From assembly GCA_027451225.1 (NCBI GenBank), contig DAIDJU010000053.1, positions 1-38,825 on the forward strand: a stretch of 38,825 bases of DNA. The letters are read 5' to 3'. Below the pieces are notes generated by a model. The model worked only from the letters and a program-made list of their open reading frames with translations, searched no databases and was not told the origin of the DNA. A program made the translations under genes and the position numbers. Each line of letters begins with the position of its first letter. The stretch's first letter is position 1. This stretch comes from Acidocella sp. GTDB taxonomy: Bacteria > Pseudomonadota > Alphaproteobacteria > Acetobacterales > Acetobacteraceae. Shown here piece by piece: positions 1 through 3,184 of this stretch.

Positions 1-1010
<1,010 letters not shown>

Positions 1011-1026
1011 ATCTCTGCTCTTCCGC

Positions 1027-1116
1027 TTAAAATGCCGTGGGTTGGGTTGTTAGGCATTCCCCTGAGCGATGGCGTGCCGCACCGGGCGCACGCAAAATAA
1101 CCTAGCCGCTCAGGGG
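1027..1116 (-). promoter_or_regulatory. putative leucine attenuator hairpins upstream of leuA
   Basis: On the minus strand CCCCTGAGCG (1116-1107) can pair perfectly with CGCTCAGGGG (1068-1059). Inside this lies a second inverted repeat, GCGTGC (1093-1088) with GCACGC (1077-1072). Immediately downstream AATGCC (1058-1053) can pair with GGCATT (1036-1031), extendable by G-U pairs at 1060-1059, and ends in TTTTAAG, which is a weak terminator-like tail. The leader-peptide stop lies in the first arm, so a ribosome that reaches the stop would block the large hairpin, while one stalled at the Leu codons would allow it. Which fold terminates is inference; the U-tract is poor. Confidence 0.5.
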
Positions 1117-1163
1117 CGGGTAAGTCGAAGAAGCAGCCCGAAAAGGGTTGGGGCGTAAGCCAT
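1110..1163 (-). CDS. leuL: putative leucine-rich leader peptide of leuA
   Basis: A 17-codon frame on the minus strand reads MAYAPTLFGLLLRLTRP and then TGA. Five of the 17 codons are leucine, four of them within codons 10-14. Four of the five are CTT, a codon I would expect to be rare in such GC-rich DNA. The stop (1110-1112) lies inside the 5' arm of a 10-bp hairpin, and leuA starts 99 nt further on. This is the classical layout of a ribosome-mediated attenuator, in which stalling at Leu codons during leucyl-tRNA shortage changes the RNA fold. There is no obvious Shine-Dalgarno before the ATG; a promoter-like pair would start transcription almost at the ATG, so the transcript may be leaderless. 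Reading and coordinates come from the sequence; function is inferred. Confidence 0.65.
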   Translation of the reverse strand: MAYAPTLFGLLLRLTRP

Positions 1164-1171
1164 GGCCAAAG

Positions 1172-1199
1172 AATTAAGGGGTTTTGCCGGGCGGCGCAA
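1172..1199 (-). promoter_or_regulatory. candidate promoter for leuL-leuA
   Basis: On the minus strand TTGCGC (1199-1194) and TTAATT (1177-1172) are separated by 16 nt, resembling sigma-70 -35 and -10 hexamers. A start 6-9 nt after the -10 would fall at about 1163-1166, at or just before the leader-peptide ATG. The match is moderate and rests on sequence resemblance alone. Confidence 0.35.
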
Positions 1200-1235
1200 G
1201 CATTTTGCCGCGCCGGCCCATGAGTGGGGCGCGGG

Positions 1236-2159: not shown

Positions 2160-3184
2160 GGCGCGCGCGTCAGCTCGTACAGCGCCACCGCCCCGGCGGC
2201 GGAGACGTTGAGGCTCTCCATCCCGCCCGGCATGGCCAGGGCGCAGACCTCGTCGCAGGTTTCGCGCGTCAGGCGGCGCATGCCTTCGCCCTCGCTGCCC
2301 AGCACCAGCGCCACGCGCCGCCCGGCGAAATCCCCGCCGCGGAGCCGGGTGGAGGAATGGCCGTCCAGCCCCACCACCCAGACATCGGCGGATTTCAGCA
2401 CGACCAGCGCCCGCGCGATGTTGACGATTCGCAGCAGCGGGATCGTCTCCAGCGCGCCGGAGGCGGCCTTGGCCAGCGCGCCGGTTTCCTCGGGCGCGTT
2501 GCGGTCCTGCGCGATGACGGCGCAGGCGCCAAAGGCCTGGGCCGTGCGCATCAGCGCGCCGACATTGCGGGGATCGAAGATCTGGTCGAGCACCAGAATC
2601 GGGCCGGGGCGCTTGAGCGCGTCCAGCAGGGTGGGGGCCTCAAGCTGGTCGGTAAGCAGGGCGATGCCCTGGTGCACGATGCCCGAACCGGGACGCGCGC
2701 CGAGGATCTGGTCGATTCGCTCGCGCTGGGTGATCTCGGGCTGGATGGGCCAGGGCTGGGGGCATTCCGCCGCCAGCGAGGCCTGCGCCTCCTCGGTGAT
2801 CACGAGTTGGCGAAAGCGCCGCCGCGGATTTTTTAGTGCCGCCGCCACGGCGTGGGTGCCGTACAGCCACACCGCGCCCGCAGGCGTTGCGGCCGGGCGT
2901 TCGCCGCGCCCGCGCCCGCCATGCTCGCCACGGTCCTGCGCCCGCTCTGGCTTATGCTCGGCGCGGGCGGGCTGGTTTTGGCGAGTTTCCCCGCCACGCG
3001 GGCGGTTGGAGAAGGGGCGGTTCTGGTCGCCATGCTCGCCACGGCCTTGCGCCCGCTCGGGCTTATGCTCGGCGCGGGCGGGCTGATTTTGGCGAGTTTC
3101 CCCGCCACGCGGGCGGCCGGAGGAGGGGCGGTTCTGGTCGCCGTGGCGGCCGGATTTGCCGCGGGGCGGGCGGTTTTGTGTCAT
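2156..3184 (-). CDS. rlmB: 23S rRNA (guanosine-2'-O-)-methyltransferase, TrmH/SpoU family
   Basis: A SPOUT-fold methyltransferase expected to methylate the 2'-OH of G2251 in 23S rRNA using S-adenosylmethionine. The 342-residue protein has a substrate-binding domain beginning near VWLYGTHAVAAAL, then the three SpoU motifs: DPRNVGALMRTA, VLGSEGEGMRRL and SLNVSAAGAVALYE close to the C-terminus. About 100 N-terminal residues form a basic, low-complexity tail rich in R, G, Q and P, built from two 37-residue repeats (residues 14-50 and 51-87). It probably adds RNA affinity and makes the protein longer than the roughly 245 residues of E. coli RlmB. The stop overlaps the downstream glycosyltransferase start. 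TrmH is the main alternative, but the N-terminal substrate-binding domain favours RlmB. Confidence 0.9.
   Translation of the reverse strand: MTQNRPPRGKSGRHGDQNRPSSGRPRGGETRQNQPARAEHKPERAQGRGEHGDQNRPFSNRPRGGETRQNQPARAEHKPERAQDRGEHGGRGRGERPAATPAGAVWLYGTHAVAAALKNPRRRFRQLVITEEAQASLAAECPQPWPIQPEITQRERIDQILGARPGSGIVHQGIALLTDQLEAPTLLDALKRPGPILVLDQIFDPRNVGALMRTAQAFGACAVIAQDRNAPEETGALAKAASGALETIPLLRIVNIARALVVLKSADVWVVGLDGHSSTRLRGGDFAGRRVALVLGSEGEGMRRLTRETCDEVCALAMPGGMESLNVSAAGAVALYELTRAP
2918..3139 (-). repeat. 111-bp tandem duplication within rlmB
   Basis: Two adjacent copies of a 111-bp unit (2918-3028 and 3029-3139) with few differences encode two 37-residue repeats beginning HGDQNRP and ending RGE. 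The unit is an exact multiple of three, so the duplication keeps the frame. A short degenerate third start (GRHGDQNRP versus GEHGDQNRP) suggests that the boundary sequence itself is repeated. Confidence 0.9.

Follow-up and report, generated by a model that had tools for sequence, protein, structure and literature searches.

The leuA gene commits carbon to leucine. Translational attenuators of the ermC type are drug-induced and work through a stalled leader ribosome that frees a downstream Shine-Dalgarno sequence. Such attenuators are mentioned in PMC2965389. Several other leader systems also resemble the locus described here. In the enterobacterial leu attenuator, leuL, a Leu-codon leader peptide stands ahead of leuA (PMC6123439). 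In the actinobacterial LEU element (Seliverstov et al., 2005, PMC1262725), the run of Leu codons in a leader forms a base stem with the leuA Shine-Dalgarno sequence, and a pseudoknot is also part of the element. For S. lividans, the leuA leader (leuL1) is described as leaderless and as lacking a typical terminator (PMC8079986). S. meliloti trpL/rnTrpL is a leaderless leader ORF, its AUG being the 5' end of the transcript (PMC7298713, PMC10117765). A later paper from the LEU group (PMC4833913) refers to a survey of 2010 on control by ribosome-binding-site overlap, which may include part of what is described here.

The present locus is from Acidocella sp. and lies in a stretch of 38,825 nt, here called the window. 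It is likely that the element found upstream of leuA is a leucine-responsive translational attenuator of that gene. Like leuL, it has a Leu-codon leader peptide before leuA; it differs from leuL in that no intrinsic terminator/antiterminator switch was found, and in a leader predicted to be leaderless and a control predicted to be translational. With the LEU element it shares the Leu-codon leader before leuA, the lack of a terminator part and, at class level, a base stem between Leu codons and the leuA ribosome-binding region, which is unclear in the genus group of the window. It differs from the LEU element by its occurrence in Alphaproteobacteria, a hairpin at the stop codon (CCCCTGAGCG/CGCTCAGGGG) and the core CTTCGACTTA. 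S. meliloti trpL is likewise an alphaproteobacterial leader ORF with transcription starting at the AUG, as is predicted here, but it involves Trp and transcription termination, whereas the present element is read as involving Leu and translation. Unlike the ermC type, codon starvation is proposed as the signal, and the sensor codons would themselves be the masking strand. There is also a resemblance between the S. lividans peptide ...LLLLSCRGEGL, given in PMC8079986, and ...LLLLSCP of locus L229, which is a lead only. An alphaproteobacterial account of the element was not found in the literature searched; Lopatovskaya et al. (2010) or Vitreschak et al. (2004) may describe such a leuA leader.

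The leader frame upstream of leuA

The leuA gene of the window (3..1010, minus strand) starts at 1010, and its 3' end lies beyond the window edge. It matches several 2-isopropylmalate synthase models, one of them above its cut-off despite the cut gene. Upstream, on the minus strand at 1110..1163, is a leader ORF that is delineated by sequence, alignment and frame statistics and is predicted to be leaderless. Read from 1163 to 1110, it is ATG GCT TAC GCC CCA ACC CTT TTC GGG CTG CTT CTT CGA CTT ACC CGC CCC TGA, i.e. 17 codons and a stop. The peptide, MAYAPTLFGLLLRLTRP, has five Leu codons, of which four lie within the run LLLRL. CTT accounts for four of the five; its share of Leu codons in 27 long, mechanically chosen ORFs of the window is 9.4%. 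Such a 17-residue, Leu-rich frame with mainly CTT codons had been the starting point of the original prediction, and it is both present and conserved in relatives. The leader region folds somewhat more stably than its shuffles (z -2.26; 5 of 200 shuffles are equally good).

Is the frame translated, or are the Leu codons a product of chance? The motif recurs across public genomes directly before leuA, which argues against chance. In 117 cluster representatives, Leu density before the motif is 2.71 per 10 codons in the leader frame, whereas the other two frames have 0.36 and 0.79; a stop codon interrupts the leader frame in none of the 117, and the other two frames in 19 and 15, respectively. 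The codons at CTT CGA CTT read LRL in 98 of these representatives and LLL in 15, and the leader stop is 18 nt past the motif start in 93. The leader ends in Pro-stop in 94 representatives and in Pro-x-x-stop in 15 more. Residues preceding the LRL core vary widely among leaders, and in nine of the 117 the stretch examined holds no more than two Leu codons. The Leu leader frame before leuA is thus confirmed as genuine and beyond chance.

Distribution

A search for leuA in 41 genomes shows the motif in all 20 same-genus leuA loci that have upstream DNA; a comparison of relatives had been proposed as a check. Two further same-genus loci (L028, L029) are uninformative, as the contig ends inside leuA, and the leuA start of G022 is on another contig. 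Among six more distant leuA loci above the family cut-off, the motif was seen by eye in four (L004-L007) and was not seen in L003 and L008. A second leuA copy is present in the window's own assembly (G000, contig C59, 9131-10340; L002/L023) and shares its leader and neighbouring gene with the first. It is 84% identical to the window copy and, around the leader, differs at 2 of 320 bases from G020 (L019); it may come from a co-binned relative.

The core DNA pattern, CTTCGACTTA-N4-CCCCTG-loop-CAGGGG, was scanned over named public genomes and matched at least 118 stretches. In 115 of the 118 pattern matches listed, leuA lies directly downstream on the same strand; the three without leuA, loci that end within 96 bases, were dropped. 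Among the 80 matches listed by name are Gluconobacter, Komagataeibacter, Acetobacter, Acidiphilium, Roseomonas, Caulobacter and Micavibrio. When applied across the class, a covariance model matched 89 of 387 class-wide genomes (64 of 264 genera), all 89 with a same-strand leuA downstream whose aligned start is 34-409 nt away. The model missed the L005 genome, a seed member, and prevalence is therefore underestimated. In a draw from the phylum, 52 of 299 genomes had a covariance-model match: 52 of the 113 class genomes and none of the 186 others, the split being counted from the leuA-search listing of what is, by its handles, the same draw. A leuA-family match is found in 183 of the 186 non-class genomes. 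At the gathering score, Rfam gave only tRNAs in the window; below that score there were two weak, unrelated matches in the region (E 3 and 8.3). Among 20 of the 89 class loci, Rfam gave one sub-threshold hammerhead match (E 0.63) and no plausible family.

For the comparisons below, 135 loci were reduced to 128 distinct ones, and the class set and pattern set partly overlap. No leuA start was found in four loci (L086, L105, L122, L147). The genus group comprises 26 loci (25 in the promoter alignment), including five public records placed by sequence (L045, L099, L120, L136, L139). The genus-group alignment holds 24 of the 26 references, with L020 and L025 omitted. A class-level alignment, which lacked six of the 89 class loci, was set aside because sequences of both strands are mixed in it.

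Promoter-like elements and predicted start of the transcript

When 25 genus-group loci are aligned on the leader ATG, CTTGC is conserved at -36..-32; position -12 is T in 22 of the 25, position -11 is A in 23 and position -1 is C in 22. The -35-like element of the window, CTTGCG (1195..1200, minus strand), is one base further up, and its -10-like hexamer, TTAATT (1172..1177, minus strand; -14..-9 from the leader ATG), recognized from the sequence and the same alignment, is also displaced by one base relative to the aligned loci. The promoter-like pair first suggested at this site thus finds comparative support, but it was not picked up by a consensus promoter scan of the window. A promoter score based on the logo is higher at the best in-frame ATG than at control positions in 86 of 108 other loci (mean 9.10 vs 6.42). 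No conserved ribosome-binding site precedes the leader ATG among the 25 aligned loci.

Because the -35 and -10 elements keep a fixed distance from the leader ATG, the transcript is predicted to start at, or one base before, the ATG, and the leader is probably translated leaderless. Both the promoter spacing onto the AUG and the absence of a conserved ribosome-binding site recall the leaderless leader of the S. meliloti trpL type. The leaderless leader peptide had been foreseen, and promoter spacing supports it; it is less of an exception than had been supposed, since a leaderless start is also described for S. meliloti trpL and for leuL1 of S. lividans.

Pairing of Leu codons with the leuA ribosome-binding region

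In the minimum free energy (MFE) fold, the Leu-codon stretch CTG CTT CTT CGA CTT A (1121..1136, minus strand) is the 5' strand of a base stem, P1, and this strand also shows covariation at class level. The 3' strand in the MFE fold is TAAGcgGAAGAGCAG (1015..1029, minus strand), which contains the likely leuA Shine-Dalgarno sequence, GGAAGAG, at 1018-1024. Clear examples of P1 elsewhere are CCTTCGACTTAGGTG with CACCTGAGTCGAAGG in L098 and CTTCGACTTACGCG with CGCGTAAGTC...GAAGG in L182. Compared with dinucleotide shuffles, the pairing of the leader stretch with the region before leuA has a mean z of -1.03 over 132 loci (62 below -1, 5 above 1), and a control strand pairs with that region no better than chance (mean z 0.13).

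Codons such as CTCCTT resemble an anti-Shine-Dalgarno sequence in any case, and the key test is therefore one in which partners are swapped between loci. With 70 clusters, the residual for own partners is -2.73, compared with -0.10 (sd 0.32) for permuted ones. For 67 clusters of 85 class loci, it is -4.02 compared with -0.01 (sd 0.37); four of the 89 class loci are absent from this set (L152, L169 and L171, unparsed; L232, absent from the table). With the 117 cluster representatives, the residual is -3.23 (z -11.8) and negative in 95, and pairing energies are -16.72 with own and -13.39 with swapped partners. Reversed, shuffled and reverse-complemented controls give z values of -1.3, -0.3 and -0.8, respectively, and the signal is smaller with the core alone (z -3.9) or the flanks alone (z -2.8). 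The Leu-codon stretch covaries with the leuA ribosome-binding region at class level.

Where in the stem does the covariation lie? Pairs in the Shine-Dalgarno zone are nearly equal in number with own and swapped partners (4.88 vs 4.61), so that covariation is mainly in the stem flanks. Four or more pairs in -14..-5 are formed in 81 of the 117 representatives, and swapped partners do so as often (0.70); fractions of pairing position by position also differ little. Complementarity to the Shine-Dalgarno sequence was considered as the whole explanation of P1 and rejected as such: swapped partners pair the zone almost as often, and the case for P1 rests on the swap tests.

Covariation is weak in the window's genus group, where the swap residual is negative in 13 of 26 loci. 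For the window itself the residual is -1.0, which places it 24th among 128 tails and 47th among 128 leaders. We infer that P1 is used in this genus, and the mechanism in the window is less certain than that of the class.

The stop-codon hairpin and other hairpins

A 10-bp hairpin holding the leader stop had been predicted, and it is found at 1116-1107 with 1068-1059, where it varies with compensation. Its 5' arm, CCCCTGAGCG (1107..1116, minus strand), includes the leader stop TGA, and its 3' arm is CGCTCAGGGG (1059..1068, minus strand); both are defined by alignment and covariation. In 52 aligned sequences, this hairpin, P2, has standard pairs in 95.1% of cells, a share that does not exceed 60.5% once the partner is slid; its covariation score exceeds that of all 500 shuffles. 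One of the five P2 measures, further pair types, is unexceptional, being reached by 70 of the 500 shuffles. Of the aligned sequences, 50 match a pattern that fixes part of the P2 stem, and weight rests on the free positions. In L007, a locus identified by its leuA gene and independently of the pattern, the leader stop is TAG and the P2 partner strand is altered to match. The P2 stop-codon hairpin is real.

A further hairpin, P0 (GACTTAcCCGC with GCGGcTAGGTT; 1099..1126, minus strand), pairs the end of the Leu stretch with bases just past the leader stop and excludes both P1 and P2. Its mean z is -2.58 in the 26 genus-group loci and -0.32 in 102 others. P0 was thus rejected as a general feature, being enriched in the window's genus group only. 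P0 would compete there with P1 and P2, and the switch may be altered in this genus.

Between P2 and leuA, the MFE fold has a third hairpin, P3 (AATGCC...GGCATT, 1058-1053 with 1036-1031; 1031..1058, minus strand). The hairpins of relatives were to serve as another check: P2 is kept with compensation, but the P3 stem is partial or missing in the same-genus loci L012, L016, L021, L022, L024 and L025. In L020, the P3 loop contains a long inverted repeat, GGGGGTTTTTCAC...GTGAAAAACCCCC, and the short surrounding stem is mostly retained. Many loci (e.g. L040, L049, L067, L070, L137) carry a second copy of CCCTGAGG directly after the P2 3' arm (CAGGGG). This downstream copy could pair with the P2 3' arm instead (mean z -0.40 over 132 loci); no role is assigned to it.

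Proposed mechanism

How might such a leader act on leuA? Transcription would start at the leader ATG, and the 17 codons would be read from a leaderless mRNA. With leucine plentiful, the ribosome would pass the Leu codons, and the leader stretch could then pair with the leuA ribosome-binding region, P1 enclosing P2. With P1 formed, leuA would be translated poorly. When charged tRNA-Leu is short, the ribosome would stall on CTG CTT CTT CGA CTT and block P1, leaving the leuA site open. The same Leu codons would thus be both sensor and masking strand. We infer the stalling of the ribosome and its effect on leuA expression; control is placed at leuA translation because class-wide covariation joins the Leu stretch and the leuA ribosome-binding region. 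Mutations in the leader codons of S. coelicolor leuA are reported (PMC1262725) to be inconsistent with classical attenuation, and this weighs against the proposed mechanism.

Ribosome footprints placed in a thermodynamic model are broadly consistent with the scheme. In 57 loci, a footprint on the Leu codons raises opening of the Shine-Dalgarno sequence by a mean of 0.13-0.17, compared with 0.00 for a footprint upstream and 0.05 for one at the stop. With a wider definition of the site and 128 loci, the rise is 0.07-0.10 on Leu codons, 0.01 upstream and 0.02 at the stop. In the window, the opening of GGAAGAG goes from 0.15 in the free RNA to 0.43-0.46 with a footprint on codons 10-14, and is 0.18 with one at the stop; footprints on the neighbouring non-Leu codons 9 and 15-17 also open it (0.40-0.76). 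The result for the window varies with the choice of site: the 6-mer at -16..-11 does not open (0.28 free, 0.20-0.25 stalled), and over -15..-5 the values are 0.16 free, 0.33-0.38 with Leu codons covered and 0.32 at the stop.

Alternative explanations

The original prediction was of transcription attenuation, with a second terminator-like hairpin before leuA. The hairpin AATGCC/GGCATT is there, but its terminator character is unsupported, as a scan of the window found no terminator-like site before leuA. Under classical attenuation, as in enterobacterial leu operons, P0 or P2 would be the (anti-)antiterminator and P3 (AATGCC...GGCATTTT) an intrinsic terminator. P3 is followed by T-runs in the window and several members of the genus, P0 and P2 are mutually exclusive with P0 enriched in the genus group, and TTTT in tails before leuA is there somewhat above expectation (10 of 26; expected fraction 0.23). 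Outside the group, however, 16 of 102 tails have TTTT, where a fraction of 0.13 is expected, and the hairpins of the tails hardly exceed shuffles in strength, if at all (mean z -0.33 and 0.10). No antiterminator that excludes a terminator was found: P2 and P3 are adjacent, without overlap, and compatible in the MFE fold, so that no choice between terminator and antiterminator is visible, and although P0 excludes P2, no terminator was found to which it would lead. With the negative scan, T-runs near shuffle expectation and a P3 that is incomplete in relatives, the terminator reading was rejected, and classical attenuation is considered unlikely. Attenuation that depends on Rho is a distinctly unlikely alternative, which could nevertheless add to translational control. 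Once the leader ribosome has gone and leuA is untranslated, Rho would stop transcription in a C-rich region before or inside leuA. The window stretch between P2 and leuA is indeed C-rich and G-poor, and no intrinsic terminator was found, but the region before leuA varies in sequence and in length (15-148 nt from the motif to the extrapolated LeuA start).

Strong nucleotide conservation of CTTCGACTTA could also point to a binding site for a regulatory protein, such as Seliverstov et al. proposed for the LEU element of Actinobacteria; the leader frame would then be incidental. The confinement of Leu enrichment and stop absence to the leader frame in the 117 representatives, and the stop codon that changes together with its pairing partner in L007, make this very improbable. 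Could the peptide itself be the sensor? The prevalent Pro-stop ending might stall termination in response to leucine, as in an arrest peptide, for which TnaC is the comparison. The C-run of P2, however, also dictates the Pro codon, leaders vary widely in the residues ahead of the LRL core, and a footprint at the stop shifts mean Shine-Dalgarno opening little; an arrest peptide seems to us the most improbable of the readings.

Significance

If translational attenuation by the Leu codons is right, many Alphaproteobacteria, including the acetic-acid bacteria Gluconobacter, Komagataeibacter and Acetobacter, would control leuA by translation and not by the textbook terminator, and the element would escape terminator scans. 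Leaderless translation as a sensor could then be studied in a simple test case, and a link across phyla to the actinobacterial LEU element would be possible. A broader proposal is more doubtful, though possible: that these loci form one family of leaderless translational attenuators that spans the class and lacks an Rfam match, with codons as sensor and mask, which may share ancestry or design with the LEU element. If both the family and the link are true, control of leuA by codons that serve as mask would be an old device present in two phyla.

Neighbouring sequence

Two other features lie on the minus strand upstream of the leader. Between leuA and an rRNA methyltransferase gene, at 1236-2159, is a frame that matches DUF4214 near its end; an in-frame TGA (1757-1755) splits it in two. 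At 2880-3100, the rRNA methyltransferase, of the SpoU family, has a repetitive N-terminal extension, GDQNRP..GGETRQNQPARAEHKPERAQ.
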